IMG/VR virus record: IMGVR_UViG_3300008117_000071
Location: 1 to 48,082 of that record
DNA from: a virus
Reading direction: 5' to 3' (one strand)
DNA length: 48,082 nucleotides
Shown: positions 85 to 17,665 of the stretch, in pieces
Position numbering within the stretch: position 1 is the first letter of the stretch
Layout: each line of letters begins with the position of its first letter
Translations under genes and position numbers: made by a program
Notes under the pieces: model-generated
The model's database searches: none
The model's input: the letters and a program-made list of their open reading frames with translations, nothing else
Told to the model about the DNA's origin: nothing

Positions 85-119
85 TTGACACCCCCTAGAG
101 AACTTGCTATAATTCTTCC
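85..119 (+). promoter_or_regulatory. Sigma70-like promoter, leaderless geometry
   Basis: TTGACA at 85-90, 17-bp spacer, TATAAT at 108-113, then 6 nt to the ATG at 120. A consensus -10 box spans -12 to -7, so +1 falls on the A of the ATG. There is no room for a Shine-Dalgarno site. Confidence 0.85.
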
Positions 120-410
120 ATGCGCGAAGAAGACTACAACGGTTGGACGAACTACCAGACTTGGAATGTGGTTCTTTGGCTGAACAACGATCAGTCAATG
201 CTTCGTATGTTTGAGTACCTGATGGGCAAGGTCAAGAATGTCGATATTTTTGACTTTCAGGCCATCGTGATCGCCTGTTACGAGACTGTCTTTCTCAAGG
301 CAGAGACTCCCGATGGAGTTCATCTTTCAAATTTTGAGATCGATTGGCCTCAGATCATGTCGGTCCTCTGTGAGGATTACGGTGTGAAATTTGACCTAAT
401 CAAGTACTGA
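120..410 (+). CDS. Small phage protein with NGWTNYQTWNV motif (DUF7249-like)
   Basis: A 96-residue soluble protein. Residues 7-20 (YNGWTNYQTWNVVL) match a motif I recall from many small phage proteins, grouped as DUF7249; its function is not known to me. There is no signal peptide or membrane segment. The start is fixed by the consensus promoter that ends 6 nt upstream, so translation is probably leaderless. It is a single-gene unit followed by a terminator at 438-470. The family assignment is from memory of the motif; the gene itself is well supported. Confidence 0.8.
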   Translation: MREEDYNGWTNYQTWNVVLWLNNDQSMLRMFEYLMGKVKNVDIFDFQAIVIACYETVFLKAETPDGVHLSNFEIDWPQIMSVLCEDYGVKFDLIKY

Positions 411-437
411 CCTACGGTGAGTGGTGTGAGGTTCCAT

Positions 438-470
438 AACCCCCAACTGGGTGACCAGTTGGGGGTTTTT
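438..470 (+). terminator. Rho-independent terminator
   Basis: 11-bp GC-rich stem (440-450 with 455-465), GTGA loop, then five T. It ends the unit that starts at 120. Confidence 0.9.
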
Positions 471-479
471 ATGATAAAA

Positions 480-516
480 ATCATTTTATAAAATCATTTA
501 TAAAATGATAGTAAAT
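480..516. repeat. AT-rich inverted repeat, copy 2 of hairpin family
   Basis: Arms 480-492 and 497-509 (13 bp, perfect) with a 4-nt loop, followed by AGTAAAT. The ATCATTTT/AAAATGAT ends and the following AGTAAAT match the hairpin at 18-57 although the inner stem differs. Confidence 0.6.
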
Positions 517-524
517 GAATAAAA

Positions 525-554
525 CAATAACAGAGACTTTACTCTCTGTTATTG
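525..554 (-). terminator. Hairpin, probable terminator of the 613-873 gene
   Basis: Arms 525-536 and 543-554 (12 bp, perfect) with a 6-nt loop. It lies about 60 nt beyond the stop of the minus-strand gene at 613; the T-run after it is weak on that strand. Confidence 0.5.
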
Positions 555-612
555 CAAGTTGACCGCGAATAATAATTAAATTCAAATTGCGGTTTTAATT
601 GTTTTTGAAGAA

Positions 613-873
613 TTAGGCAACCTCTGCCGTATATTCTTCAACTTCCATGATGTTTTTCACCACCATGCTTCGCCATCCCTTTGCAACAAGGTCAAACACC
701 CTGATTTGGTTCTCAGAATATTCCATTTTACCTCTGGGGCGGTCACGACTTGGAATAAATTCTGCATTTGTGGTGCAAATCATGTGGCGAATGTCACCAT
801 TTACCTTCTTGAACCTCACAAACACCACCTTACCGTCACGCAGCAGGCTCTTGAGGGTATTTTTGTGACTCAT
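613..873 (-). CDS. WYL_2/Sm-like SH3-fold phage protein (DUF2693-like)
   Basis: An 86-residue protein that resembles the DUF2693 (WYL_2, Sm-like SH3 beta-barrel) family of small phage proteins. The pattern is a TLKSLL start, then VVFVRFKKVNGDIRHM followed by CTTN, and a later FDL...GWRSM segment. The exact function of that family is unknown; an SH3-like fold suggests nucleic-acid or protein binding. It forms a single-gene minus unit with its own promoter (874-910). The ATG lies 8 nt after the -10 box, so the leader is at most 1-2 nt. The family call rests on motif recall. Confidence 0.75.
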   Translation of the reverse strand: MSHKNTLKSLLRDGKVVFVRFKKVNGDIRHMICTTNAEFIPSRDRPRGKMEYSENQIRVFDLVAKGWRSMVVKNIMEVEEYTAEVA

Positions 874-910
874 ATGCCATCATTATACCCGATTGTCGGT
901 CACAAGTCAA
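874..910 (-). promoter_or_regulatory. Sigma70-like promoter, near-leaderless
   Basis: On the minus strand: TTGACT (905-910), 17-bp spacer, TATAAT (882-887), 8 nt to the ATG at 873. Confidence 0.75.
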
Positions 911-946
911 GCCCATAGAGTCTAGAAACTTCCTCAACCAAGTCAC

Positions 947-982
947 TTGACAAGAATATAGGCATCTGATATAATCCCCCGC
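947..982 (+). promoter_or_regulatory. Sigma70-like promoter, leaderless geometry
   Basis: TTGACA 947-952, 17-bp spacer, TATAAT 970-975, 7 nt to the ATG at 983. Confidence 0.85.
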
Positions 983-1330
983 ATGGAAGATTTCTCAAAC
1001 AACACCGACTCTCTCGAAAATCTTTTCAATCTGTCGATTGATCAGATCGATGTTAATGGTGCGAATGGCATCATTCTTGATCTTTTCTACGCGGTTCAGT
1101 CGATCTCCAACGAGAATTTCTCAAAGATCAACGCGGAGTTGCTCAAACTGGAGTTGGATGGTGCAGATGCACAGAATCTTCAGACCATTCGGTCTGAACT
1201 TCAGGCCGTTCAGGTGCTTCTCTCCGTCTCTCAGAAGAAGGCATCTTCGATGGCCTCTGAGTACGACAACGCCATGAAGTCTGTTCTGTCTGCGATTCGG
1301 GATGCGCTCAACGAAAGCGAGGAAATCTAA
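983..1330 (+). CDS. Hypothetical helical protein
   Basis: 115 residues, acidic, with Leu/Ile/Ala heptad-like spacing across most of its length, so probably all-helical or coiled-coil. No motif, signal peptide or membrane segment is recognisable. Its start is set by the promoter at 947-982, which leaves no leader. It is the first gene of a two-gene unit with the acidic protein at 1332, separated by one base. Function unknown. Confidence 0.8.
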   Translation: MEDFSNNTDSLENLFNLSIDQIDVNGANGIILDLFYAVQSISNENFSKINAELLKLELDGADAQNLQTIRSELQAVQVLLSVSQKKASSMASEYDNAMKSVLSAIRDALNESEEI

Positions 1331-1331
1331 T

Positions 1332-1502
1332 ATGGAAGACTACGAAATCGAGTACTACTCTTACATGAATGGTTGGGATGACGATGAGGACTACAAGAAT
1401 CTCTCCAGTAGTGAACTGGAATACGAGATTCTGATGTTCGACTCTACGGTTCTTGACGAGGAGGATGACTTCTTTGATGGGGAGAATGGGGAAGAGGATT
1501 AA
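1332..1502 (+). CDS. Very acidic small protein
   Basis: 56 residues, dominated by Asp, Glu and Tyr (for example DDDEDY and DEEDDFFDGENGEED). The ATG at 1332 is preceded by GAGGAAA about 7 nt upstream, inside the end of the previous gene; a longer frame from 1302 exists but lacks a start signal. It is cotranscribed with the 983 gene and ended by the terminator at 1523-1553. Small acidic phage proteins can be DNA mimics or inhibitors of host enzymes, but nothing here shows that. Confidence 0.75.
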   Translation: MEDYEIEYYSYMNGWDDDEDYKNLSSSELEYEILMFDSTVLDEEDDFFDGENGEED

Positions 1503-1522
1503 GTCATTTACCTTGGCAGAGA

Positions 1523-1553
1523 AGAGAAGGGCTAACCACCCTTCTCTTTTTTT
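1523..1553 (+). terminator. Rho-independent terminator
   Basis: 9-bp stem (1523-1531 with 1539-1547), 7-nt loop and a run of T. It ends the 983-1502 unit. Confidence 0.85.
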
Positions 1554-1560
1554 ATTTAAA

Positions 1561-1598
1561 CATTTTATTTTATAAATTAAAATAAAATGATAGTCAAA
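1561..1598. repeat. AT-rich inverted repeat, copy 3 of hairpin family
   Basis: Arms 1561-1572 and 1578-1589 (12 bp, perfect), 5-nt loop, ending AAAATGATAGTCAAAT. It shares its right end with the copies at 18-57 and 480-516. Confidence 0.55.
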
Positions 1599-1635
1599 TT
1601 ATATTCTTAATATTCTACATATAGTGGAGAATCTT

Positions 1636-1890
1636 ATGGACGATTTACCACTAGTCGAAGTATTATGGAGAGATGCTGAAGAATATGGTGAAGTCGGATG
1701 GAATGATATAGAAGAGATTAAAGAATATGCAAAATCTCCTTGTCCTTTAGTAAGATCAATTGGGTATGTTTTACATAATTCTGAGAGCCATATAAGCCTC
1801 ATACGGGCGTACCATTCTGAGGGGTTCTCCACCGTGGAGAAAATTCCCAAAGGCTTTATAGAGGCTATACGGGGCTTGGAGAGGCTCTAG
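1636..1890 (+). CDS. Hypothetical small phage protein
   Basis: 84 residues. The pattern of a Trp-rich start, LVRSIGYVLHNSESHISLIRA in the middle and IPKGFIEAIRGL at the end recalls a family of short phage proteins of unknown role. I chose the ATG at 1636 because GGAGA lies 7 nt upstream; the longer GTG-started frame (1624) would overlap that site. I do not see a convincing promoter just upstream, and no terminator follows directly. Confidence 0.7.
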   Translation: MDDLPLVEVLWRDAEEYGEVGWNDIEEIKEYAKSPCPLVRSIGYVLHNSESHISLIRAYHSEGFSTVEKIPKGFIEAIRGLERL

Positions 1891-2019
1891 AAAATCTTTG
1901 TTAAACCCACCCCTCTCGACCACATTAAAATATATTCTTCAATTCTGACAACGAAATTCACATTTTGTCAACACTCTGACTCCCCTTTATGGGACACCCC
2001 CATAAATAATATAATATGA

Positions 2020-2027
2020 CATAAATA
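2020..2027 (+). promoter_or_regulatory. Possible late promoter (CATAAATA)
   Basis: CATAAATA differs from the T4-type late box TATAAATA at one base and lies 19 nt before the ATG at 2047. It is the only promoter-like element I see in the 1891-2046 gap, which otherwise holds no gene. Confidence 0.4.
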
Positions 2028-2046
2028 TTCTATAGGAATTAATCAA

Positions 2047-2271
2047 ATGAATGATCTAATAGAGTACTATAAAGAACTAATAAAGTTTCGACAAATCAAT
2101 GAAGGTATATCCAAAGAGGAAGTTGGTAATCGTATCAATACTCTCAATAAAATAATTGATAGAATGAGTAATGACAAACCTTCAAGAATTGATTCAAGAC
2201 AATTGACAGATATGAAGAAAATGTTAGCCAAACTGTATAAAATACACGCATACATGAAAGGAAACAAATGA
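2047..2271 (+). CDS. Small helical protein with capsid-targeting-like N-terminus
   Basis: 74 residues, Lys-rich and helical. The N-terminus (MNDLIEYYKELIKFRQINEG) has the look of T4 capsid-targeting peptides: short, amphipathic, ending in an (I/L)-x-E site (INE, residues 17-19). A similar start, MKELVEYYKSFLAE, opens the gene at 36460. It overlaps the next gene by 4 nt (ATGA), so the two are translationally coupled. A role as a virion-internal protein is inference. Confidence 0.7.
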   Translation: MNDLIEYYKELIKFRQINEGISKEEVGNRINTLNKIIDRMSNDKPSRIDSRQLTDMKKMLAKLYKIHAYMKGNK

Positions 2272-3050
2272 AGAAAATATTTGAGTCTTGGAGAAAGAAG
2301 AGAGAAAGAAATAAAAGAATGTTGAAGATATCGGGTACTGATCCTTCAACGGGAGAGAAAAAGTTTTCTTCAATTCCAAGAGAGAGAAGATTAAATGCCC
2401 TTGAGAGTGCCAAGGATAAATTGGCTAAAATGGCAAGAAAAGAACATAATGTGGGTTATTTGCAATTGGTGAGGGATTCTGAAGCCTACCATAATGTTAT
2501 GAGATATGGTGGAAAGTCTGATCCTGAGTATAGAGAAAGAATTAAAACACCAATCTTTCAAAACGATGAGTATGTGTCGAAACTCTATAAAATTCGTCGT
2601 TTGAATAAGGCGATAAAGAATATTAAATCTCGTCGGGATACGAGAGTTCAGAAACAATTAAATGTTCCTGAAGATGAATTAATTCGTTTGGTTCGTGCGG
2701 CGAATGCTCAAAGAGCGAAAGCAATGGGAAAAAGAAAAGGATTGACCGAAGGCCGCAGAAGAGTGGAAAGATTGATTCAAAAACGAGGTTTGTTTTCACC
2801 CGAAGTGGTCGGCCCTTGGCGTAAATATCAAAGAAGACTGCATAATTTATCGTTAAAGGCCCAAATGGGAACATATGATAAAGAATTTGGCCCTGAAATT
2901 CGTAGAATGGGGCTTCAAACATTTACACAACAACTTTCAGAGTTTCCGCCTGATTTGGCCCACGGTGTCGCAGGAACGGTTGTTAGCAAAGAATTAAGAA
3001 CAAGACAAAGAGAGAGAAAAGGATTACCAATTAGACCGAATATCGATTAA
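2268..3050 (+). CDS. Highly basic hypothetical protein, probably virion-internal
   Basis: 260 residues, rich in Arg and Lys throughout, no hydrophobic segment. It starts MKKIFESWRKKRERNKRM. The N-terminal MKKIFE could be a minimal prohead-protease signal, and the composition suits a DNA-binding protein packaged in the head. It overlaps the 2047 gene by 4 nt and is followed after 13 nt by a 24-residue gene with a strong Shine-Dalgarno site. I recognise no enzyme motif. Confidence 0.7.
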   Translation: MKKIFESWRKKRERNKRMLKISGTDPSTGEKKFSSIPRERRLNALESAKDKLAKMARKEHNVGYLQLVRDSEAYHNVMRYGGKSDPEYRERIKTPIFQNDEYVSKLYKIRRLNKAIKNIKSRRDTRVQKQLNVPEDELIRLVRAANAQRAKAMGKRKGLTEGRRRVERLIQKRGLFSPEVVGPWRKYQRRLHNLSLKAQMGTYDKEFGPEIRRMGLQTFTQQLSEFPPDLAHGVAGTVVSKELRTRQRERKGLPIRPNID

Positions 3051-3063
3051 ATTGGAGGGACAT

Positions 3064-3138
3064 ATGAATTCAATTGACGGATTGTACGGAACATATGATC
3101 AGGCATCCGCAACATTTGAAGGAAATGACGAAGAGTAA
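3064..3138 (+). CDS. 24-residue peptide
   Basis: A very short acidic reading frame, supported mainly by a strong ribosome-binding site (GGAGG, 5 nt before the ATG) directly after the 2268 gene. The terminator at 3141-3170 follows its stop. Function unknown; it could instead be a translated leader-type peptide. Confidence 0.55.
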   Translation: MNSIDGLYGTYDQASATFEGNDEE

Positions 3139-3140
3139 AG

Positions 3141-3170
3141 AATAAACCCCCAAATCGGGGGTTTATTTTT
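3141..3170. terminator. Bidirectional terminator
   Basis: Arms 3141-3151 and 3157-3167 (11 bp) with flanking T-runs on both strands, between converging units (2047-3138 plus, 4370-3169 minus). Confidence 0.85.
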
Positions 3171-3384
3171 AATTCACCAACTGAGAAACATATTCCGTTG
3201 GAAGTTCAATTTGGAAATCTCTGTCCATGAATTCAATTTCAATCCATGTTGAGTCCCCATCCACGGAAATGATTGTCCACTCTCCGTAAATGACATTTAC
3301 GATATCTCCATTTTCATCGTAAAGTGCATCCTCGTCGCTCTCCCACTCCCAAGGCTCCTCAAAGTAAATCTTCTTTCCAATCAT
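3169..3384 (-). CDS. Hypothetical acidic beta-rich protein
   Basis: 71 residues with alternating hydrophobic and charged residues typical of a small beta-barrel (WTIISVDGDSTWIEIEFMDRDFQI has this pattern). The ATG at 3384 has GAGGAAA 4-5 nt upstream; the frame from 3396 begins at a TTG without a site. Last gene of the operon that starts at 4370. Function unknown. Confidence 0.7.
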   Translation of the reverse strand: MIGKKIYFEEPWEWESDEDALYDENGDIVNVIYGEWTIISVDGDSTWIEIEFMDRDFQIELPTEYVSQLVN

Positions 3385-3392
3385 TTGTTTCC

Positions 3393-3593
3393 TCAAATGT
3401 ACGAAAACTTCTCAAATGAGAACTTGACGGTCTTTCGCTCAATGGCCGCTTCGCCATCGGCACGGGAATTGCGTTCCTTGGTAATTCTCTTGCCCATTCC
3501 GAAAGGCTTGCAGATGGTACGATTGTGCTTTACCACAGCCGCACCCTCTCGCTCCGCTTCCAAATCAAATTGATCAATGACTCTCTTCGGCAT
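3393..3593 (-). CDS. Hypothetical basic protein
   Basis: 66 residues, rich in Arg, Lys and Glu. I place the start at the ATG at 3593 because AAGGAGG lies 6 nt before it; it overlaps the end of the upstream gene by 20 nt. The much longer frame from 3770 lies almost wholly inside the neighbouring gene and is not credible. Third gene of the 4370-3169 operon. Function unknown. Confidence 0.7.
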   Translation of the reverse strand: MPKRVIDQFDLEAEREGAAVVKHNRTICKPFGMGKRITKERNSRADGEAAIERKTVKFSFEKFSYI

Positions 3594-4065
3594 CCGAATC
3601 CTCCTTGACACAATCCCAATCAAGACTATTTGCAACATAGGATGGGGTTCTGCCATGCATGACCGCATAAAGTTCGCAGTACATTCTCCGTGCCTCGTCT
3701 CGCTCCTTGCGGAGTTCAAAGATCGTCTGACCACACTTCTCCAACTGGTCATCCCGATCCTTGAGCGCATTGGTCAGGATTTCGCTGCGAGTGCGAAAGA
3801 TTGTTTCGTCATTGCTCATGGGGGTATTGTAACCAGTTTCCAAAGGCTTGTCAAGGCTCATCTCGTTGATCATTTCCTTGGCCTCCTCCGTTTCCTTCCA
3901 CGCCTCAATCACGGGATGATTGCAGGAACAAACAATCGCTTCCCGCATACTTGGCCCAACAAGGAGTCCATCCCACTCATTGCACCAATGCCATCCCTGA
4001 TCGTACTCTTCCTTGGTGAGTCCAAGCCCACTCTGCTCAAGAATGTCGTAGCGTTCCTTATTCAA
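3574..4065 (-). CDS. GWDC-family paralogue A
   Basis: 163 residues. The C-terminal part has the pattern KERDEARRMYCE followed about 20 residues later by LDWDCVKED. The neighbour at 4062-4370 and the protein at 6917-7399 share it, so the three form a paralogous family. The rest is helical and probably coiled-coil. The start is a TTG overlapping the stop of the upstream gene; no good ATG start is available until Met37. Function unknown. Confidence 0.65.
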   Translation of the reverse strand: MNKERYDILEQSGLGLTKEEYDQGWHWCNEWDGLLVGPSMREAIVCSCNHPVIEAWKETEEAKEMINEMSLDKPLETGYNTPMSNDETIFRTRSEILTNALKDRDDQLEKCGQTIFELRKERDEARRMYCELYAVMHGRTPSYVANSLDWDCVKEDSDAEESH

Positions 4066-4370
4066 AGGGAATCACCCATTCCGCTTTCCTCGTAGCAATC
4101 CCAACCGTTTCGCTTGGCTATCTGCTCCTCTGTGAGATCAATATTGCCATATACATCCGCCTCGTAGGCACAGGTGAGTTCGCAGATTTCCTTTCGGAGA
4201 TTATTGCGGTCATTCAGAATGACCCCGTACTGATCCTCAAGCCGCAGAATCGTGCGGCGATCCTCTTCGGCTTCGCCTTCCAACCCAATAATAATCTCAA
4301 GCATCATAATGCGAGTTTCCTCAGTCATGGAATCGAATGCGGCCTTAATCATTTCAGGTGAGTATTGCAT
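4062..4370 (-). CDS. GWDC-family paralogue B
   Basis: 102 residues from the ATG at 4370: an acidic coiled-coil-like region, then RNNLRKEICELTCAYEAD and the motif AKRNGWDCYEE near the C-terminus. The start is set by a promoter whose -10 box ends 6 nt upstream. The longer frame to 4409 simply translates the promoter. First gene of a four-gene operon running to 3169. Function unknown; paralogous to the genes at 3574 and 6917. Confidence 0.75.
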   Translation of the reverse strand: MQYSPEMIKAAFDSMTEETRIMMLEIIIGLEGEAEEDRRTILRLEDQYGVILNDRNNLRKEICELTCAYEADVYGNIDLTEEQIAKRNGWDCYEESGMGDSL

Positions 4371-4405
4371 GGCGTGATTGTACCAAAGTGGTTTGCTGTT
4401 GTCAA
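4371..4405 (-). promoter_or_regulatory. Sigma70-like promoter, leaderless geometry
   Basis: TTGACA (4400-4405), 17-bp spacer ending TGG (possible extended -10), TACAAT (4377-4382), 6 nt to the ATG at 4370. Confidence 0.85.
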
Positions 4406-4417
4406 CCAAGGGTCTGA

Positions 4418-4645
4418 TTACGAATTCTTCTTGTTTCCAGTACCAAACACCAAGGAACTCAGGTTCCGATGCCTCGTAGAAGCCCTCAGAAGCCTCTGAG
4501 AGCCGATATTGAGGAGTTCCCTAACCATAGGGGGAACATCAAGTTCAGCGGCCTCCTCCATCATTCCTGCAAGTTCAATATCACCAATGTCATTCCACTT
4601 GATGGAATCATTTGCCGAATTGGAGTTGTGGTCGTTGGTGTTCAT
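4418..4645 (-). CDS. Hypothetical polar protein
   Basis: 75 residues from the ATG at 4645, Asn/Asp/Ser-rich at the N-terminus and basic at the C-terminus. Upstream in-frame residues only translate the promoter, which is embedded in the 3' end of the preceding gene (4642-4926). A single-gene unit with its own leaderless-type promoter. Function unknown. Confidence 0.7.
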   Translation of the reverse strand: MNTNDHNSNSANDSIKWNDIGDIELAGMMEEAAELDVPPMVRELLNIGSQRLLRASTRHRNLSSLVFGTGNKKNS

Positions 4646-4926
4646 GGGCGTATCATACCAAGTTGGTTTTCCGATGTCAAGCCATCGACTTTCTGAAACC
4701 CCAACCCAATAAGAAATTTCCAAACCTTTCTACCAAAGTAGATGTCGTAATTTATTCGCATACTGACAAATTCTTTAGAATCATCCATGAAGAAAGGCCA
4801 TGTAATTTCTGTGGTTCCATTAAATCTACGAATTTCAAGAGTTTCTTCGTCTTCACTCAAAATAAATTCATAGGTCATTGGCGCATCTTCCATGCGATTC
4901 TTAGAGATGAAGAAAGAAGTTTTCAT
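4642..4926 (-). CDS. Hypothetical protein, RK-W domain
   Basis: 94 residues. Residues about 63-78 (YFGRKVWKFLIGLGFQ) resemble YSRKIWNLLTENGL in the protein at 7412-7771, so the two may be distant paralogues with a shared C-terminal helix. It overlaps the upstream gene by 4 nt (ATGA) and is the third gene of the operon starting at 5564. Its last 40 codons contain the promoter of the next gene. Function unknown. Confidence 0.7.
   Translation of the reverse strand: MKTSFFISKNRMEDAPMTYEFILSEDEETLEIRRFNGTTEITWPFFMDDSKEFVSMRINYDIYFGRKVWKFLIGLGFQKVDGLTSENQLGMIRP
4646..4680 (-). promoter_or_regulatory. Sigma70-like promoter, leaderless geometry, inside a gene
   Basis: TTGACA (4675-4680), 17-bp spacer, TATGAT (4652-4657), 6 nt to the ATG at 4645. 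The whole promoter lies within the 3' end of the 4642-4926 coding sequence. Confidence 0.8.
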
Positions 4927-5159
4927 TCATTTTTCCCATTATCTACTTTGGTATTACCCGCACAATCAATGAGTAGGGAATCAATCACCTTCATTGAATC
5001 ATCACGCTCAACAATCAAGATATTAACAGCCTCATCAAGAATCTTGATTGCTTCCGCTGCCTCAATCAGTTTCTCAATTTGATCCGAATCAAAGTAGCCA
5101 TTATTTGCATCTGCAAAATCAAGCAACCATTGAGCGAGTTCGTTTGTTGAATCGTTCAT
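4923..5159 (-). CDS. Hypothetical acidic helical protein
   Basis: 78 residues, acidic, helical (EKLIEAAEAIKILDEAVNI). Two ATG codons are close together; the one at 5159 has GGA at a better distance than the one at 5165. It sits between the 5172 and 4642 genes in one operon. Function unknown. Confidence 0.7.
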   Translation of the reverse strand: MNDSTNELAQWLLDFADANNGYFDSDQIEKLIEAAEAIKILDEAVNILIVERDDSMKVIDSLLIDCAGNTKVDNGKNE

Positions 5160-5171
5160 AATCATTCCAAG

Positions 5172-5564
5172 TTAAGAAATCTGAAGATTTCTACGAGGAT
5201 AATTATTGTCGTAGACCTTGATCAATTCGTAAAAATCTGAACCACCATAAGTGAAATGTAAAGACCAAATGTCCCACGGATCAAGTGTGGTTTCATTGAG
5301 TGGTTCCGAAATCACATTCCTCTTGGTGTAACCCTCATTCTTGAGAGAATTCCACTTGGCACGGGCATCTTCAATTTTCATTGCTCGACCTTCAGTTCTA
5401 CGCCAATAGGAATCAGGCCCAAGCGACCAATTGTAGCATCGAACCTCATTCGGATTCCAAGGGTTTGGAATGAATACGACAGCAATCTGAATTCCATACT
5501 TACTGACAGGACTCATCAGAGCATAGGTCGGAGGCATATCGAAATCGGAGTAGTCGTATTGCAT
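5172..5564 (-). CDS. Hypothetical aromatic-rich protein
   Basis: 130 residues, unusually rich in Trp, Tyr and Pro, with no membrane segment. The start at 5564 is set by the promoter 6 nt upstream; residues encoded further upstream only translate the promoter. First gene of the operon 5564-4642. Function unknown. Confidence 0.75.
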   Translation of the reverse strand: MQYDYSDFDMPPTYALMSPVSKYGIQIAVVFIPNPWNPNEVRCYNWSLGPDSYWRRTEGRAMKIEDARAKWNSLKNEGYTKRNVISEPLNETTLDPWDIWSLHFTYGGSDFYELIKVYDNNYPRRNLQIS

Positions 5565-5599
5565 GGTCGGAGTATACCAAGACAAATCAAAGATGTCAA
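5565..5599 (-). promoter_or_regulatory. Sigma70-like promoter, leaderless geometry
   Basis: TTGACA (5594-5599), 17-bp spacer ending TGG, TATACT (5571-5576), 6 nt to the ATG at 5564. Confidence 0.85.
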
Positions 5600-5603
5600 G
5601 TCC

Positions 5604-5912
5604 TCAACCATTGACACCAATGGTCATGCACGAAGCATTATAGATGAACTCAGCAACATCATCAGTCGAAATATTGGCAAGCACATCATCGTCGCAGTAT
5701 TTGAAACCGATCACATGAATCCAAGCATGGGTATCGGCATTCCACGCAGCGCACTCCGCAGTCGTCTTTCCATCGGAGTAATTCATACTACCGATACGAA
5801 TCGAAACGGTGATGCGATTGGTGAAAGTCATCGTGAAGCCCATGTTCACGGAATTGGTGATGATATTGATACGCGAAAGCGAGTCGGAGATGGGGGGATT
5901 GTTGGTGTCCAT
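5604..5912 (-). CDS. Hypothetical beta-rich protein
   Basis: 102 residues from the ATG at 5912, rich in Thr, Ile, Asn and Ser with alternating polarity, suggesting beta strands. No signal peptide. Single-gene unit with its own promoter at 5913-5947. Function unknown. Confidence 0.7.
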   Translation of the reverse strand: MDTNNPPISDSLSRINIITNSVNMGFTMTFTNRITVSIRIGSMNYSDGKTTAECAAWNADTHAWIHVIGFKYCDDDVLANISTDDVAEFIYNASCMTIGVNG

Positions 5913-5947
5913 AGTCAGATTGTACCAAGACAAGAAATTGTTGTCAA
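5913..5947 (-). promoter_or_regulatory. Sigma70-like promoter, leaderless geometry
   Basis: TTGACA (5942-5947), 17-bp spacer ending TGG, TACAAT (5919-5924), 6 nt to the ATG at 5912. The -35 box overlaps the stop region of the upstream gene. Confidence 0.85.
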
Positions 5948-6417: not shown

Positions 6418-6676
6418 TGATCCACCTCGACGCGAATCTTAAACTTTCCAGTTTCTGCATTCTCAAGAATGATTTCGTTGATTGTGCCAAATCCGTAGTC
6501 AGAGCCAACACAAATGAAAGGCCCACCTTCAGGATCAAAGTAATCAATTCCCTTATTGTCTTCACTAGCACCAACACGATAATAGTGGGCCTTTCCCTCA
6601 ATGGTATAAATTCCATGACCATTGGAAGTCACAGTACGCTTATCACCATAACGAGATGGGGAAATCTTAATGCTCA
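6414..6676 (-). CDS. Hypothetical beta-rich protein with EGGPF motif
   Basis: 87 residues. The ATG at 6676 has AGGAAA upstream; the track of the frame to 6776 runs through the previous gene and is rejected. The core DPEGGPFICVGSDYGFG and alternating hydrophobic pattern suggest a small beta-barrel. Second gene of the 6885-5944 operon. Function unknown. Confidence 0.75.
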
Positions 6677-6693
6677 TTTGTTTCCTTTGAAAA

Positions 6694-6885: not shown

Positions 6886-6920
6886 TCGCGCATTCTACCG
6901 CAAGTAGTTATTCTTGTCAA
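6886..6920 (-). promoter_or_regulatory. Sigma70-like promoter, leaderless geometry
   Basis: TTGACA (6915-6920), 17-bp spacer, TAGAAT (6892-6897), 6 nt to the ATG at 6885. Confidence 0.8.
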
Positions 6921-7399: not shown

Positions 7400-7434
7400 T
7401 GTGGCATCTTATCAGGTATCATTACTGTTGTCAA
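7400..7434 (-). promoter_or_regulatory. Sigma70-like promoter, leaderless geometry
   Basis: TTGACA (7429-7434), 17-bp spacer, TAAGAT (7406-7411), 6 nt to the ATG at 7399. Confidence 0.75.
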
Positions 7435-7771: not shown

Positions 7772-7803
7772 TTTTTCACTCCTTCGATTTGCTTGGACGA
7801 TTG

Positions 7804-8088
7804 TCAATCGTCGGCATATTCTTCATCGTCAAGTTCGCTCTCGCAAAAAATTTCATCGACATTGGTCGAACCACCAACCCAACGATTCAAATCTTCGCAA
7901 ACCATGTTGAAGAAATCTTCAGGGGTCTGTTCTGTAATCTCTGTGGTAATCGTAAAAGAAATATGATCGCCATATTCCTCAATGTTGTCGGGTTCAATCC
8001 CGTACATCGTGCGGCACTCATCGAACAAATTCTCTAGGTTCTTTGGTGCGGGAAACATACTCAATGCTCCAGTATAAAGATCACTCAT
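7804..8088 (-). CDS. Hypothetical acidic protein
   Basis: 94 residues, strongly acidic C-terminus (ELDDEEYADD). Two possible starts, 8088 (GGTGA at 6-7 nt) and 8100, differ by four codons. It overlaps the end of the upstream gene. Middle gene of the 8233-7412 operon. Function unknown. Confidence 0.7.
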   Translation of the reverse strand: MSDLYTGALSMFPAPKNLENLFDECRTMYGIEPDNIEEYGDHISFTITTEITEQTPEDFFNMVCEDLNRWVGGSTNVDEIFCESELDDEEYADD

Positions 8089-8233
8089 TGATTTCACCAT
8101 TCATCCTTTCTTCGTGAAGAACATCCTCAAGACGCATAATCAAACTAGTCCAATCCTGCTCTCCACGATTAGTCTCTTCACGCAGAAGATTAATCGTGTG
8201 TTCAAGACGAACAACAAATGGAACTGTATTCAT
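8081..8233 (-). CDS. Hypothetical 50-residue protein
   Basis: 50 residues, helical with Arg/Glu-rich heptads (RLEHTINLLREETNRGEQDW). The promoter just upstream fixes the ATG at 8233; the longer frame to 8344 only translates the previous gene and the promoter. First gene of a three-gene operon. Function unknown. Confidence 0.7.
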   Translation of the reverse strand: MNTVPFVVRLEHTINLLREETNRGEQDWTSLIMRLEDVLHEERMNGEINE

Positions 8234-8268
8234 GGGCGTAGTATAGCAAGGCCCATTAAAGTTGTCAA
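8234..8268 (-). promoter_or_regulatory. Sigma70-like promoter, leaderless geometry
   Basis: TTGACA (8263-8268), 17-bp spacer, TATACT (8240-8245), 6 nt to the ATG at 8233. The -35 overlaps the stop of the upstream gene. Confidence 0.85.
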
Positions 8269-8708
8269 GGCTCAGAATCGATCTCCTTGAGAATCGCCAT
8301 GATCTCTGAATTTTGTTCAGAGATTTTCTTGGATGCATTGACAATCAATCGAACATCATCAATTGTGATGTTATGCTCTTCGTCATTCCAAAGCCTTTTA
8401 GCGAATTCATCAAGTCTCTCACACATCTTTTCCGCCGAAATAAATTCAGCGAGTCCGATAATTGTCAGATGAATTGATGGATCAATAACACCATCAATCT
8501 TGACATCGAAAGCAAAATCAACCTCTCCATCTCCAATCACCTTATTGGTGAATTCGATGTTTTCGGTATTAAACTTACTTTCAAGTTCGTTGCGAACGAA
8601 AAAGAAGGAAAGTTCCTTCGTATCAAACCTATCGTTAATGACGCACTCATTGTTGATGTGCAACTTAACGGTATAAATGAATTCGGGTAGTGGAAGTGGA
8701 AGTTTCAT
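8265..8708 (-). CDS. Hypothetical protein
   Basis: 147 residues, acidic, beta-rich N-terminal two thirds and helical C-terminus. No recognisable motif. Single-gene unit with its own promoter (8709-8743). Function unknown. Confidence 0.75.
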   Translation of the reverse strand: MKLPLPLPEFIYTVKLHINNECVINDRFDTKELSFFFVRNELESKFNTENIEFTNKVIGDGEVDFAFDVKIDGVIDPSIHLTIIGLAEFISAEKMCERLDEFAKRLWNDEEHNITIDDVRLIVNASKKISEQNSEIMAILKEIDSEP

Positions 8709-8743
8709 ATCGAAAGTATATCACTTGTTAATTTATCTGTCAA
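8709..8743 (-). promoter_or_regulatory. Sigma70-like promoter, leaderless geometry
   Basis: TTGACA (8738-8743), 17-bp spacer, TATACT (8715-8720), 6 nt to the ATG at 8708. Confidence 0.85.
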
Positions 8744-9057
8744 TCGTTCAGACCAAGTTCTTCGTCCAATTCAGAAAGTCTATCTAAATGAATATTCTGC
8801 TTCCTATGCTTCTTTGCATAAGATTCATAATTCATTTTAATTTCCTCAAAGTCAATAACTGGAAGACTCATCGCAATCAGTCTGTTATTGATTTCAGATT
8901 TAATCTCTTCTATATTCCCACCAATCTCCAAGTTTGGGCTTGACGATAGAATTGGAAGATTATCATCATCATAATAAACTTCACGAATCGTGATATATCC
9001 ATCCTCATTTACTAGACGAAGATTCCAAGTGCAAATTGGTACTGACATTTCACTCAT
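8740..9057 (-). CDS. Hypothetical protein
   Basis: 105 residues, beta-rich N-terminus, helical acidic C-terminus. It starts TAATG on the stop of the upstream gene (start 9057; Met4 at 9048 is also possible). Last gene of the operon starting at 9883. Function unknown. Confidence 0.7.
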   Translation of the reverse strand: MSEMSVPICTWNLRLVNEDGYITIREVYYDDDNLPILSSSPNLEIGGNIEEIKSEINNRLIAMSLPVIDFEEIKMNYESYAKKHRKQNIHLDRLSELDEELGLND

Positions 9058-9266
9058 TACCTACCCCTTGAATATTCACGGTCAAGTCTACGAATGTTTT
9101 CGCTACCGTGAGCAACGAACAACTCTCCCGCCGTCTTATGAGAAAAGATTATACGACATCTAGTTGGTGGAATATGTGTATCCACGCAATCGACACAATA
9201 TTCAGTATCGGGAAAAAATTCAAGCCTTGACTCAGAAATTTGATTTCCACAATCAATACACTTCAT
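9057..9266 (-). CDS. Zinc-finger (DksA/TraR-like) protein
   Basis: 69 residues starting MKCIDCGNQISESRLEFFP, then YCVDCVDTH: a CxxC...CxxC finger of the kind seen in DksA/TraR-type proteins (rRLea.P....Cv.C), though the N-terminal coiled coil of DksA is missing. The site GAGGGAG lies 8 nt before the ATG, and its first bases overlap the stop of the upstream membrane protein gene. Whether it touches RNA polymerase is not shown by the sequence. Confidence 0.75.
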   Translation of the reverse strand: MKCIDCGNQISESRLEFFPDTEYCVDCVDTHIPPTRCRIIFSHKTAGELFVAHGSENIRRLDREYSRGR

Positions 9267-9433
9267 TCAAAAATCTCCCTCAAGCCCATAATAAGCAACA
9301 AAAAAAAAGAGAACAAAACCAAACCAACCCAAAATCCTGCCATTCCAAATGTTTCATAAATGAAGTAAAACATTAGAAATGTAACAAGAAAAGAAAGAAA
9401 AACCACAATTAAATCTTTAGTTGACTGCTGCAT
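9263..9433 (-). CDS. Small two-segment membrane protein
   Basis: 56 residues, not in a longer frame: residues 7-25 and 34-51 are strongly hydrophobic (VVFLSFLVTFLMFYF and GFWVGLVLFSFFLLLI). The ATG overlaps the stop of the upstream gene (TAATG) and its own stop overlaps the next start (ATGA), strong signs that it is a real operon member. Its coding strand contains a run of nine T at 9300-9308, a possible slippage site. Function unknown. Confidence 0.75.
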   Translation of the reverse strand: MQQSTKDLIVVFLSFLVTFLMFYFIYETFGMAGFWVGLVLFSFFLLLIMGLREIFE

Positions 9434-9711
9434 TACTTATCATCCTCATAGGTTTCGTCATCATCCTCATCATCCTCGTAAATATCCTCGTATTGATCGA
9501 ACGAATTCTCAATATCAATGTATTTATCAAGTTTCTGAGCCATGAAATCAATCTCAATGAGAGTATCCTGATAATTCAGCAGCCGAGAAATAATTTCTTG
9601 AATCACATCATGTGCAAATATATCGCCATCCACCTTTAACTGGTTGGCGATAATATCTGCTTGAACTGCTAGATTTTCGTTATTCAAGTGTTTTGGATTA
9701 CTTTCGTCCAT
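9433..9711 (-). CDS. Hypothetical acidic protein
   Basis: 92 residues ending in a long Asp/Glu/Tyr tail (DQYEDIYEDDEDDDETYEDD). It overlaps the end of the upstream gene. Second gene of the operon 9883-8740. Function unknown. Confidence 0.75.
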   Translation of the reverse strand: MDESNPKHLNNENLAVQADIIANQLKVDGDIFAHDVIQEIISRLLNYQDTLIEIDFMAQKLDKYIDIENSFDQYEDIYEDDEDDDETYEDDK

Positions 9712-9883
9712 TTGCCTTTTCCTTAATCATAGAACAAACAATGTCGTAACGATAGCAGATTTCCTCTACGATCTCTGCATAGTCTTCATTGTCGCTGTTC
9801 TGAAGAAATGTGATAACCTCATTGCACTTGTCAATGAGTAGACAATCTGAATACATTTCGGGGTCAGGAATAAAGTCAGGCAT
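9698..9883 (-). CDS. Hypothetical small protein
   Basis: 61 residues from the ATG at 9883, with several Cys and acidic residues. The promoter 6 nt upstream decides the start. First gene of a five-gene operon. Function unknown. Confidence 0.7.
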   Translation of the reverse strand: MPDFIPDPEMYSDCLLIDKCNEVITFLQNSDNEDYAEIVEEICYRYDIVCSMIKEKANGRK

Positions 9884-9918
9884 AGTCGGATTATACATCA
9901 TCTGCGATTTGTTGTCAA
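9884..9918 (-). promoter_or_regulatory. Sigma70-like promoter, leaderless, back-to-back with the next
   Basis: TTGACA (9913-9918), 17-bp spacer, TATAAT (9890-9895), 6 nt to the ATG at 9883. Its -35 is only 3 nt from the -35 of the divergent promoter at 9922. Confidence 0.85.
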
Positions 9919-9921
9919 GGC

Positions 9922-9956
9922 TTGACACTCAATTTCATACCTGATACAATCGTGAT
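9922..9956 (+). promoter_or_regulatory. Sigma70-like promoter, leaderless geometry
   Basis: TTGACA 9922-9927, 17-bp spacer, TACAAT 9945-9950, 6 nt to the ATG at 9957. Confidence 0.85.
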
Positions 9957-10262
9957 ATGGAATTGCACTATTACGATAACATTCTTGTTACGGTTTACGA
10001 TAATCCATTTGAAGGTGAAAACGCATCTGAAATTATCATTCGCAACAGTTATCTTGTAAGTACCGACAATTACGATTCTGATAAGATTTTTTCAGAGTTT
10101 GAATTTTACTCCAATGGTGAGTATGGGGACGATGAAGAATTTATGAGTGATCTATTTGATGGTCTTAGGGAAGAAGCATTTTGCAATGGTTTGTTTTATG
10201 ATGCTTTGATTCAATCTAAAGTAATGACGCACGAAGATATCTACGGTGTAGGTGGAGATTAA
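9957..10262 (+). CDS. Hypothetical acidic protein
   Basis: 101 residues, acidic, Tyr/Phe/Asp-rich, no motif. A single-gene plus-strand unit between minus-strand operons, with a leaderless-type promoter and a terminator at 10297. Function unknown. Confidence 0.75.
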   Translation: MELHYYDNILVTVYDNPFEGENASEIIIRNSYLVSTDNYDSDKIFSEFEFYSNGEYGDDEEFMSDLFDGLREEAFCNGLFYDALIQSKVMTHEDIYGVGGD

Positions 10263-10296
10263 TCTCCATCTTTTTTTTTTCATTATAAAATAAAAA

Positions 10297-10327
10297 AAAG
10301 ACGATTTGGATTTCCCAAATCGTCTTT
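10297..10327. terminator. Bidirectional terminator
   Basis: Arms 10297-10309 and 10315-10327 (13 bp, perfect), with A/T runs on both sides, between the convergent genes ending at 10262 and 10347. Confidence 0.9.
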
Positions 10328-10346
10328 GCTCATGTAGAGCATTTGG

Positions 10347-10556
10347 TTAACTTGCGTAGATTACATACCAATCCTGATCCGATGTATCCTGATTATACAG
10401 CCTGACGAAATCCTCCTTGGTTTCAAGATCGGAGACGAAAAAAACATTCTCACCATTGTCCTCGCATGGATCACCACCCAAACAAATGTTTACCCAAAGG
10501 GTTTCGGTTGGATCGTCCTTGTAGGCAATTTCACAAACAAGAATCTTGCTGCTCAT
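10347..10556 (-). CDS. Hypothetical small acidic protein
   Basis: 69 residues, beta-rich and acidic, no motif. Single-gene unit with its own promoter. Function unknown. Confidence 0.75.
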   Translation of the reverse strand: MSSKILVCEIAYKDDPTETLWVNICLGGDPCEDNGENVFFVSDLETKEDFVRLYNQDTSDQDWYVIYAS

Positions 10557-10591
10557 ATAGGCATTCTACCTACTGCATAATTTTCTGTCAA
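10557..10591 (-). promoter_or_regulatory. Sigma70-like promoter, leaderless geometry
   Basis: TTGACA (10586-10591), 17-bp spacer, TAGAAT (10563-10568), 6 nt to the ATG at 10556. Confidence 0.85.
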
Positions 10592-10595
10592 GGAA

Positions 10596-10928
10596 CTACT
10601 TCTTCTTCTTTACCTTAGAATTCTTGATGATCTTGTCAAGTCCGATGTAATCATCGCCAAAGTAAAATTCATGATCATTTGCAGACATATTTGTCTTATT
10701 GATCCAAGAATTAATGTCTTGCAAATTAATTGAAGTTTCCTCAATCTCGACATTTCCGTCATCGGGGAAAGTAAATGTCATCTCTTCCATTTCCATTAGA
10801 ACATCTTCATAAGTTGAAGTCTTCTTTACTGGAAAGATAACACTTACACGAACCATCTTCAAATCGTCAATAGTTGGATTGACAATTTCCTTCTTTGTGA
10901 TCTCTTTATTCATCTTCTTAAAGTTCAT
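10596..10928 (-). CDS. Hypothetical protein
   Basis: 110 residues ending in a Lys-rich tail. The ATG at 10928 follows the stop of the 10934 gene by a few bases; another ATG at residue 6 (10913) with AAGAAG upstream is possible. Second gene of the 11242 unit. Function unknown. Confidence 0.65.
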   Translation of the reverse strand: MNFKKMNKEITKKEIVNPTIDDLKMVRVSVIFPVKKTSTYEDVLMEMEEMTFTFPDDGNVEIEETSINLQDINSWINKTNMSANDHEFYFGDDYIGLDKIIKNSKVKKKK

Positions 10929-10933
10929 AATAT

Positions 10934-11242
10934 TTAATATCGCATTCTTTTGTTTAGGGGAATACAATGAGCCTCGTAAATTTTCTCAAAAAATTTATTT
11001 GGATCGAATGTATCACGAATTACTTTGTACTCTGAATATGTAATATCAAATTCTTCGATTGGTTCTTTATTTGAATTGAGCCTAAGATCGAATAATTCGT
11101 AGTCTGTAATGTTAATATCTACAAATGTATCTCTTGGAATTAATTCATAGGTAATTGCTGCTTTTGCTTCTCCATTGTAAATCTTTTGGTTGTCGAATTT
11201 GACGGGATTTATCTTGAAGTTTTCACTAATAAACTCAAACAC
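10934..11242 (-). CDS. Hypothetical protein, GTG start
   Basis: 102 residues, beta-rich, no motif. The first codon is GTG, 7 nt after a TATACT box, so this looks like a leaderless GTG start. First gene of a two-gene unit. Function unknown. Confidence 0.7.
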   Translation of the reverse strand: MFEFISENFKINPVKFDNQKIYNGEAKAAITYELIPRDTFVDINITDYELFDLRLNSNKEPIEEFDITYSEYKVIRDTFDPNKFFEKIYEAHCIPLNKRMRY

Positions 11243-11278
11243 TTGACATAGTATACCAAGAAGATTAAGTCAAGTCAA
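11243..11278 (-). promoter_or_regulatory. Sigma70-like promoter, leaderless geometry
   Basis: TTGACT (11273-11278), 17-bp spacer, TATACT (11250-11255), 7 nt to the GTG at 11242. Confidence 0.75.
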
Positions 11279-11478
11279 CTCTTGCTTCCATAAAATATTT
11301 TGTTTATTCTATCCAACAATCTAGGAACATATTCATTTGGCGATTCATTCTTTTTTGGTTCGACTGAATCATCTTTGATATCACCCGCGATATTTTTATT
11401 ATATGAAAGCCAACCCTTGTTGAATTTCTCTTCTCTGATTGATTTAATCAATTTTTTGAATTGTTTTTTGCAGCGCAT
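11275..11478 (-). CDS. Small basic protein under a late promoter
   Basis: 67 residues, Lys-rich (MRCKKQFKKLIKSIREEKF at the start). TATAAATA lies exactly 5 nt before the ATG, so it is a late gene with a probable leaderless message, unlike the early-type genes around it. A virion-internal role is possible from charge and timing. Function unknown. Confidence 0.7.
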   Translation of the reverse strand: MRCKKQFKKLIKSIREEKFNKGWLSYNKNIAGDIKDDSVEPKKNESPNEYVPRLLDRINKIFYGSKS

Positions 11479-11491
11479 GATAGTATTTATA
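11479..11491 (-). promoter_or_regulatory. T4-type late promoter, leaderless geometry
   Basis: TATAAATA on the minus strand (11484-11491), then CTATC and the ATG at 11478. The T4 late box spans about -13 to -6, so +1 coincides with the ATG. Confidence 0.7.
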
Positions 11492-11525
11492 AAGATGGGA
11501 ATGGTTTTTAGCCATTCCCATCTTT
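11491..11525 (-). terminator. Hairpin after the VWA gene
   Basis: Arms 11491-11504 and 11512-11525 (14 bp, perfect) just beyond the stop at 11527. Its distal edge touches the late promoter of the next gene. Confidence 0.75.
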
Positions 11526-11526
11526 A

Positions 11527-13737
11527 TTATTCAACTGCAATGAGATCGATGAATCGATTCAGCATGACACGGGAAGAAATCTTCTTGTTCATTGCCTTGA
11601 CAAATGCAGTACGAATCGAATGATTTGTCTTCTTATCCTTGACTACATCTGAGATATTAACATCCTCAACCTCAGAATTTCCACGAAGAATAAACAGTTC
11701 GGCATAAGAATGATGCTTTGGATCGGCACAAGCAAATCCCTCATCTTGGAACATCTTATTCTGCTTCAGAAGATAATCATTGGACGAGTTGTAGAAGAAA
11801 CGATTAAGGGTAGAACCACTAATTTCTCCGCGAGAACGCCGCCCATCAAGATAAATTCCAATCGCACGACAATTGCAGATGCCTTGGAACATTTCAATAA
11901 GACAATCGGTTGTGTTCTTATTCAGCGGCATATCGTAAACATAACGATCACGAATAAGAGTAGAGAGTCGCCCATAAGTCGATCCATAAATCCACGAACC
12001 ATTTGACTCACCATCCGTAAGGAATACGGTATGAACAATGTCAAGATTCTTTTCCTTCTTGAACATAGGAACAATATCCATAGCCGCAATAATTGCTTCG
12101 TTCAGAGGAGTTCCCGAAAGACCCATATAGCGTGGAACATGAGTATAATAACTGGAACTATTATATCCACGCGAACCCTGATTGATGATCGCAAAAAGAT
12201 TGGTCATCATTTCATTGAATTCGGTTCCACTCATATTGTCATTCAACAATTCAAGCAGACTGAAATCTGAGAAATTCTGCTCATTGTTGGGGAAGTTCCA
12301 ACAGATTGAAGTTCCACCATCACGAATCATATCCCAATGTTCGTCAACAAGAAGCGAAGAGAAGGCATAAACCTTGTACGGAATATTCATCTTTCGGCAG
12401 AAGAAAACAATTTGGAACATCTGCTTAAGAGTATCATCAAGGATCGGGGCCATGCTGCCTGACCAATCCATAAAGAATACAAGACCGTGAGACTTTCCAC
12501 GCTTTACGGTCTTCATACGGAGGAAGATATCATCCGTAAACTTGTAATTAACGAGAGAATCAAGATCAATAATACCCGTCTTGCTCGTAGTTCCACGGGC
12601 CGAATCCTTCGCGGCCTTCTTCATCATAAACTGCTTGACGAGAATGCCAACCGAATTATTTGAAGAATTCTTGAACGAGATGAAATCCTTTTCCGCATCA
12701 TTGTACTGAGTTGGAGTTACAGACCTAGAAATCCTGAAATCGTCAAGAATTCGCTTGTAACCAACAATCGTCTTGTCGAGATTTGTCTTCGGAATGATAT
12801 TCTGATGACTTACCTTATTCTTATCAATCAGAGAATCCTGCATCGAAGTAAACTTCTTCTGAGTCATGCACTCAGAAGGCATCTTTCCCTGATAATGCTC
12901 AGGAGTCGCATGGGGATCATTCTTGATTCCTTCAGTCTTAACAGAATCCTCTTCCTTATCCTTTTCACCCTCACCGCCTTCGGAACTCGACTTACCCTTG
13001 AAGTCGCCATCAATATCTTCGGAGATCTTAACCTTCACCGAATTACCAGTATCATCATCCTTATTCCCATAACCAATGTCGCCATCAATCCCATCAATCT
13101 TTTCGGGAGTGGGGGGAGTGATCTTAGAATAAGCCCAAATATCCTTGACGATCTCGACAACATCATCGAAAGTAATTGCCTTCGCAATACGATCAATAAA
13201 ATTCTGCTCGTCATCATTGAACTTGATCGGCTTGGGAAGAATTCCACCAATCTTGAAATAAAGATTGATGCGGTCGATCAGAGACATTTCATCAATATTC
13301 TTCCCATCGGTTCCGAAGAAATTCTTATCGTAGAGTTCCTGATATCCGATGCGATAATCACGACCGATACCACAAAACTTTTCCTTCATCAGTCGATCAA
13401 TACGGGCATCCTCAACTGCATTGAGATAATCGAATGCAATATGAGAACCATTCGGCCCACCGATCTTATCAGCCGCCACACCATATCCACCCTTAATCAC
13501 GGAATCCTCATCCGTACTAGTATAAGGAGTGAACAGAGCATGACCAACCTCATGGGCGACAAGCATATCGTAGAGTTCGTTCGACATCTCATCCTTGAAG
13601 ATGGGAAGGGTCAGAACACGATTGCGAATATCGAACATTGCAGTATGCGCCTGATGCGAGTGGCGCACAATAATGTTCTCGCAAGCAAGCACCTTGGCAA
13701 GAACTGACTTGGATTCTCGATTTACGGTATTCTGCAT
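11527..13737 (-). CDS. CobT-like VWA protein with HExxH domain
   Basis: 736 residues from the ATG at 13737. The N-terminal part contains AHEVGHALFTP (HExxH at residues 62-66), a zinc-metallopeptidase signature. The middle is acidic and Lys/Glu/Asp-rich. The C-terminal part is a von Willebrand A domain with a MIDAS motif (DWSGSM at about residue 423, SGTPLNEA, then FLTDGES). This layout matches the CobT-like proteins of T4-type marine phages, usually paired with a CobS-like AAA+ ATPase. Here that partner is divergently transcribed from 13877. By analogy with MoxR-VWA pairs, the VWA protein probably presents substrates to the ATPase; a real role in cobalt insertion is unlikely. Peptidase activity is inferred only from HExxH. 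Confidence 0.85.
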   Translation of the reverse strand: MQNTVNRESKSVLAKVLACENIIVRHSHQAHTAMFDIRNRVLTLPIFKDEMSNELYDMLVAHEVGHALFTPYTSTDEDSVIKGGYGVAADKIGGPNGSHIAFDYLNAVEDARIDRLMKEKFCGIGRDYRIGYQELYDKNFFGTDGKNIDEMSLIDRINLYFKIGGILPKPIKFNDDEQNFIDRIAKAITFDDVVEIVKDIWAYSKITPPTPEKIDGIDGDIGYGNKDDDTGNSVKVKISEDIDGDFKGKSSSEGGEGEKDKEEDSVKTEGIKNDPHATPEHYQGKMPSECMTQKKFTSMQDSLIDKNKVSHQNIIPKTNLDKTIVGYKRILDDFRISRSVTPTQYNDAEKDFISFKNSSNNSVGILVKQFMMKKAAKDSARGTTSKTGIIDLDSLVNYKFTDDIFLRMKTVKRGKSHGLVFFMDWSGSMAPILDDTLKQMFQIVFFCRKMNIPYKVYAFSSLLVDEHWDMIRDGGTSICWNFPNNEQNFSDFSLLELLNDNMSGTEFNEMMTNLFAIINQGSRGYNSSSYYTHVPRYMGLSGTPLNEAIIAAMDIVPMFKKEKNLDIVHTVFLTDGESNGSWIYGSTYGRLSTLIRDRYVYDMPLNKNTTDCLIEMFQGICNCRAIGIYLDGRRSRGEISGSTLNRFFYNSSNDYLLKQNKMFQDEGFACADPKHHSYAELFILRGNSEVEDVNISDVVKDKKTNHSIRTAFVKAMNKKISSRVMLNRFIDLIAVE

Positions 13738-13773
13738 AGGGCGTAGTATACCATGTTCCGAAAGTTTGTGCAA
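13738..13773 (-). promoter_or_regulatory. Sigma70-like promoter, near-consensus, leaderless geometry
   Basis: TTGCAC (13768-13773), 17-bp spacer, TATACT (13745-13750), 7 nt to the ATG at 13737. The -35 is the weakest of the set. Confidence 0.65.
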
Positions 13774-13840
13774 GCCCTTGGCTCAAGATTATGGTGCGCT
13801 CGCAGTAACTTATCAATTTCCGATCTCATTGATCAACCCA

Positions 13841-13876
13841 TTGACTTGGTAAATGAGTTCGGTTACAATGCTCCGC
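13841..13876 (+). promoter_or_regulatory. Sigma70-like promoter, leaderless geometry
   Basis: TTGACT 13841-13846, 17-bp spacer, TACAAT 13864-13869, 7 nt to the ATG at 13877. It is divergent from the promoter of the VWA gene, with 67 bp between the two -35 boxes. Confidence 0.8.
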
Positions 13877-15422: not shown

Positions 15423-15423
15423 T

Positions 15424-17660: not shown

Positions 17661-17665
17661 TCTTT

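Follow-up and report, generated by a model that had tools for sequence, protein, structure and literature searches.

Promoters abutting start codons suggest leaderless messages for promoter-proximal genes of a T4-like phage and its relatives

Analysis of a 48,082-base virus record (IMG/VR IMGVR_UViG_3300008117_000071; "the window" below means this whole stretch), a fragment of a T4-like myovirus, revealed near-consensus −35/−10 promoters that end 6 (5–8) nucleotides (nt) before the start codon of promoter-proximal genes, here called heads. With this placement the usual transcription start point would be the A of the AUG, and we consider it very probable that the heads of this phage and of its clade are expressed from leaderless mRNAs. 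A sequence-only reading of the same DNA had proposed leaderless early messages, and this is now supported by the constancy of the 6-nt spacing, by the failure to find Shine-Dalgarno (SD) sites before or just after the heads, by a pyrimidine at −1, and by A/C-rich, unfolded starts.

The distance from the −10 box to the start codon (d) was 6 nt at 14 of the 20 early sites, 7 at four, 5 at one and 8 at one (Table 1). The −35/−10 spacer was 17 at 18 sites and 16 at the other two, and an extended −10 (TGn) was present at 13. All 18 promoter-start pairs listed by the sequence-only reading were found where it had placed them, mostly at exactly 6 nt as it had said. Gene 873, which it had called slightly off, indeed has d = 8 and a predicted leader of 0–2 nt, and a site of equal quality at 3819 (minus strand) had gone unlisted. 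The promoter at 13737 is weaker than the others (TGCACA, three mismatches). The six bases preceding the start codon were 66% G+C over the 20 sites, against 37% for the genome as represented by the window.

Chance was modelled with 200 random sets of sequences from a first-order Markov model that matched the local composition. At d = 6, bases 1–15,500 held 14 sites where the random sets averaged 0.10 (maximum 1 in the 200 sets), and at d = 5–8 they held 17 against 0.39. A frequency no higher than in shuffled sequence, which the sequence-only reading had named as its refutation, was thus not seen. None at d = 6 was found in bases 15,501–48,082 (0.32 random). We then counted near-consensus promoters (two mismatches at most, spacer 16–18) that had a start codon of an open reading frame (ORF) of at least 30 amino acids at d = 5–8. 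There were 18 out of 21 in bases 1–15,500, but 0 out of 39 in T4 (1–50 kb) and 1 out of 25 in cyanophage S-PM2 (80–130 kb). A chance origin of the early layout was rejected on the enrichment over random and over these two phages. The exact pattern occurred 15 times in the whole window, 7 times in phiYS40 (152 kb), and 1–3 times per record in the T4, cyanophage, Pelagibacter and Sinorhizobium phages tested. Among the matches listed for viral contigs, with the seed sites removed, d = 6–7 formed a sharp yet minor mode (27 of 679 strong promoters).

That the promoters arose by recent duplication of a single cassette was also rejected, because their upstream and spacer sequences resemble one another about as much as random sequences do. 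Pairwise identity upstream of the −35 element was 0.26, so that d = 6 is fixed although the remaining promoter sequence is unrelated.

No SD site was found upstream of any of the 20 heads, while an SD-like motif preceded 16 of 22 other (distal) starts, hand-picked and scored with a liberal motif test. This agrees with the earlier claim that later operon genes are SD-led. A pyrimidine stood at −1 in 17 of the 20 window heads and in 64 of 70 heads over five contigs. In the same 70 heads, A+C in nt 4–27 was 0.71 against 0.50 within the same genes (p = 2e-12). The minimum free energy (MFE) of the first 40 nt at heads was −2.4 against −6.9, and the start regions of window head genes were less folded than the genes' own interiors. 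After the ATG, C content in the window was 0.26 in heads and 0.15 in distal genes (p = 8e-4). CA repeats past the start codon enhance leaderless translation, according to a review (PMC9031893).

The first ATG might instead be merely the 5′ end of a short leader, as in 5′-terminal AUG mRNAs, with translation beginning at a second, SD-preceded ATG downstream. Such an arrangement, a promoter 6 nt from an ATG and then an in-frame SD and second ATG, was found in other viral contigs, at 70549, 71528 and 73595 of G022 (L167) and at 9969, 10752 and 11189 of L150/G055. In the window, however, an SD-preceded ATG lies within 75 nt of the start in only 2 of 26 heads, both times more than 60 nt in, and the N-termini of CobT, CobS and their orthologues align at the first ATG, the one adjoining the promoter. 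We therefore rejected this explanation for the window, where it is most improbable, while it appears real in the unrelated contigs G022 and L150.

The sequence-only reading had confined the layout to an early region. The early array stands, but the restriction to early genes does not, as T4-type late promoters are placed likewise at six genes. The T4-type late promoter TATAAATA, a trait of the T4-like lineage, is present in the window, and NATAAATA boxes precede 18 starts. Six of these boxes stand exactly 5 nt before an ATG, against 0.057 at random; the remaining ones are mostly 15–19 nt from the ATG, often with an SD in between. The T4 late promoter consists of a TATA box of 8 bp, placed roughly one helical turn before the transcription start (PMC2988020), so that a 5-nt spacing would put +1 at about the A of the ATG. 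The late boxes of T4 itself (75–125 kb) were 12–35 nt from the ATG, with none at 5. Boxes at d = 5 were found elsewhere in the contigs G002 (7), G003 (3), G079 (6) and G095 (4). Pelagibacter phage HTVC008M (NC_020484) has nine ATAAATA-5-ATG sites, more than T4 or the tested cyanophages, which suggests that its late genes may be leaderless too. Separately, at 31090–31145 and 37120–37175 of the window (minus strand), a terminator-like hairpin, a late box and an ATG are packed into about 50 nt.

Searches with UvsX and ribonucleotide reductase (RNR) gave 160 loci, and 50 of their contigs were scanned for the exact early pattern. Identity in the kept sister loci went down to 73% for RNR and 71% for UvsX (range for the two, 71–86%). 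The pattern occurred at 21 places in G079 (146 kb), 19 of which fall within 133–145 kb, and at 8 in G093, 7 in G095 and 9 in G108. In the early islands beside cobS/cobT, predicted leaderless promoters made up 21 of 31 in G079, 10 of 14 in G093, 13 of 22 in G095 and 6 of 12 in G108, with 0–4 SD-leadered ones. The −10 box is 6–8 nt before the ATG in orthologues of CobT (31–49% identical to the window protein; spacing kept in G079, G095, G108 and G002) and of CobS (51–64%; kept in G093, G095 and G108). Contig G001 is 99.98% identical to the window (7 mismatches) and so yields no comparative information. The early islands were also richer in G+C than the rest of the genome in G079 (0.55 vs 0.38) and G095 (0.46 vs 0.33), and the rise was seen in G093 and the window as well. 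In locus L014 (3100–5232), UvsX coding is interrupted, with two matching pieces about 960 bp apart and overlapping query coordinates, possibly by an inserted element.

Several observations weigh against leaderless expression of the heads. The transcript 5′ ends at the start codon are predicted from promoter position. Of the 50 sister contigs, 27 had no site; most of these are fragments from which the early region may be missing. Distal genes have the same MFE as heads, and weak 5′ structure and A-richness occur at leadered starts too, so that only C-richness clearly separates window heads from distal genes. In the close sister G003, the orthologue of gene 15132 is leadered with an SD, and for CobT 9 nt follow the −10. 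Individual genes thus do not always keep the trait but switch.

Genome packing could also produce such spacing, if the promoter occupies the shortest spacer able to hold it and leaderlessness is a by-product. At six window heads the preceding gene ends with a TGA inside the −35 element, so that the promoter fills the remaining gap of 30–32 nt, and a stop in the −35 was found at 23 of 70 heads over the five contigs. The stop is in the extended −10 at 7399, and a TAA is in the late box at 26887. With the upstream stop inside the −35, the promoter (35 bp) makes up the entire intergenic spacer. But the spacing is also 6–7 where room is ample (983, 9957 and 13877), and the richness in A and C past the ATG suggests that translation of leaderless messages has been selected for. 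We consider packing an unlikely cause.

Proteins of the window, of G003 and of G095 have dockerin-like repeats ending in WG or WN, and a PEP-CTERM-like tail was seen in proteins of the window and G079; both are possibly host-derived. We take these features as a weak hint at a Planctomycetota host, which profile libraries did not confirm: NCBIfam and Pfam searches gave no host-diagnostic match. A dockerin-based genome search for the host returned only one metagenome-assembled genome, of Hyphomicrobiales.

The spacing may mirror a host with wide leaderless use, through the same mechanism and with nothing phage-specific; to this we give about an even chance. Several bacterial phyla make common use of leaderless genes (PMC3160421, PMC12340547), and in Planctomycetes, to which the host may belong, SD use is low and there is a leaderless/S1-like bias (PMC5397173). 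Among 53 head-like starts of the Phycisphaera plasmid pPSMK1, TANNNT occurred 4 times at 6–8 nt before the start and 4 times at all other offsets from 0 to 39 together, small numbers in both cases. However, the same phage genome has distal and late genes that are SD-led, which suggests that SD initiation works in the host too. Such mirroring is compatible with the leaderless mechanism and conflicts only with a phage-specific purpose. The sequence-only reading had named such mirroring, or else an escape from the usual initiation control, as what the layout may be for.

If the heads are leaderless, host RNA polymerase with its housekeeping (sigma70-type) sigma factor would initiate early transcripts at the A of the AUG, and a gp55-type late system would do so for late ones. 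Ribosomes, probably 70S, would then initiate at the 5′-terminal AUG, aided by the A/C-rich unstructured codons downstream; leaderless mRNAs are established to initiate through 70S binding (PMC9031893). Further along these transcripts, distal genes would use SD sites or stop-start overlaps. Since a head gene would lack a ribosome site within a read-through transcript, most of its product should come from messages begun at its own promoter, so that the output of each head would be insulated; Zheng et al. raised the same idea for bacteria (PMC3160421). It is also conceivable, although we think it improbable, that leaderlessness is the default of early and late heads across the clade and that infection shifts host ribosomes or initiation factors to 5′-AUG, with phage messages outcompeting the SD-led host ones.

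Table 1. Putative promoters adjoining start codons, and proteins with dockerin-like or PEP-CTERM-like features, in the window. Early promoters are written as −35 element, spacer, −10 element and d, and are predicted to be leaderless unless a leader is given; late promoters are written as box and distance to the start codon.
Position	Strand	Promoter	Gene and remarks
85..119	+	TTGACA-17-TATAAT-6	120-410
874..910	-	TTGACT-17-TATAAT-8	613-873; predicted leader 0-2 nt
947..982	+	TTGACA-17-TATAAT-7	983-1330; distal gene 1332 with SD
3820..3854	-	TTGACA-17-TACAAT-6	3574-3819, within longer in-frame ORF 3574-4065
4371..4405	-	TTGACA-17-TACAAT-6	4062-4370
4646..4680	-	TTGACA-17-TATGAT-6	4418-4645; promoter in 3′ end of gene 4642-4926
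5565..5599	-	TTGACA-17-TATACT-6	5172-5564
5913..5947	-	TTGACA-17-TACAAT-6	5604-5912; upstream TGA stop within TTGACA
6886..6920	-	TTGACA-17-TAGAAT-6	6694-6885; upstream stop within -35
7400..7434	-	TTGACA-17-TAAGAT-6	6917-7399; upstream TGA within extended -10
8234..8268	-	TTGACA-17-TATACT-6	8081-8233; upstream stop within -35
8709..8743	-	TTGACA-17-TATACT-6	8265-8708; upstream stop within -35
9884..9918	-	TTGACA-17-TATAAT-6	9698-9883
9922..9956	+	TTGACA-17-TACAAT-6	9957-10262; divergent partner of 9884-9918
10557..10591	-	TTGACA-17-TAGAAT-6	10347-10556
11243..11278	-	TTGACT-17-TATACT-7	10934-11242, GTG start; upstream TGA in TTGA at -35
13738..13772	-	TGCACA-16-TATACT-7	11527-13737, CobT-like
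13841..13876	+	TTGACT-17-TACAAT-7	13877-15079, CobS-like
15098..15131	+	TTGACA-16-TAGAAT-6	15132-15374
45418..45451	-	TTGATA-17-TATACT-5	45133-45417; upstream stop within -35
11479..11491	-	TATAAATA-5	late; 11275-11478
17653..17665	+	TATAAATA-5	late; ATG 17666
19177..19189	+	TATAAATA-5	late; ATG 19190
26874..26886	+	AATAAATA-5	late; 26887-27264; upstream TAA within box
31099..31111	-	AATAAATA-5	late; 29290-31098; directly past terminator-like hairpin
37127..37139	-	TATAAATA-5	late; 36920-37126; past terminator-like hairpin
32745-34622			dockerin-like/PEP-CTERM-like protein
34635-36410			dockerin-like/PEP-CTERM-like protein
47191-47838			dockerin-like/PEP-CTERM-like protein

Two loci have a special arrangement. 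Positions 9881–9959 carry two back-to-back promoters predicted to be leaderless, whose −35 boxes are 3 bp apart. The ORF 3574-4065 (minus strand) has a TTG start in a TTGA stop-start overlap and, in frame, a predicted leaderless promoter with an ATG at 3819, and two nested protein forms may be made from it.

T4-type replication genes for gp43, UvsX, gp41 and primase were found in the window by PHROG matches (E down to 1e-138); of the gp43-type DNA polymerase the C-terminal part is present, and the helicase is of the gp41 type. ThyX and a B12-dependent RNR were also present, and the CobS/CobT-like genes had their best matches in cyanophages. None of the genes identified in the window fragment encodes a capsid, portal, terminase or gp55 protein, although no search was aimed at them. 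A permuted (two-piece) transfer-messenger RNA was found at 46247–46437 (minus strand; Rfam RF04321, 59 bits against a gathering threshold of 47), and a phage-encoded tRNA-Gly at 47090–47161.

The sequence-only reading knew only single leaderless phage genes, but the layout is not without precedent. Leaderless phage transcripts have been described before and the sister contigs share the layout, while early arrays of this density were not found in the open-access literature. Most middle and late mRNAs of the Thermus phage phiYS40 are reportedly leaderless (Sevostyanova et al. 2007, cited in PMC3594737). Like the window phage, it has many transcripts without a leader, but it is an unrelated phage in which the middle/late class is leaderless, whereas in the T4-like window the trait is predicted for the early class, with near-consensus TTGACA/TATAAT elements, and part of the late class. 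Several leaderless promoters have been predicted in cluster O mycobacteriophages (PMC4351075), which differ in having few such promoters per genome, known by prediction only, and in being unrelated phages with an unrelated host. According to one paper, leaderless transcripts are frequent in phages (PMC5312081). In bacteria, Deinococcus-Thermus among them, leaderless genes likewise have the −10 directly before the ORF, and there too proximal genes are leaderless and distal ones SD-led (PMC12340547, PMC3160421). Those genes belong to bacterial genomes, however, while the arrays of the window are those of a phage and have a strong −35 at almost all heads. T4 and the Kyanoviridae cyanophages share homologous gp43, UvsX, gp41 and primase and the NATAAATA late boxes, and the cyanophages also CobS/CobT, but of the strong promoters of T4 and S-PM2 only 0 of 39 and 1 of 25, respectively, are at start codons. 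Within the open-access literature, subscription papers being outside the search, we found no description of leaderless T4-type late promoters or of such a clade either. Leaderless phage genes are thus known singly or in a few phages; as the standard arrangement throughout a group of phages, which our sequence comparisons suggest, leaderlessness would be new as far as we found.

Gene callers that expect an SD may misplace or miss such starts. If the 5′ ends are as predicted, the clade would offer a rich natural collection of leaderless genes whose promoters are strong and uniform, with a count of at least 70 in five contigs. This raises the questions of what is needed downstream of a 5′-terminal AUG, whether leaderless genes are shielded from read-through, and what makes certain hosts and phages favour leaderlessness. 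With orthologues that are leaderless in one genome and SD-led in another, together with the downstream A/C signature, these old questions would become testable.

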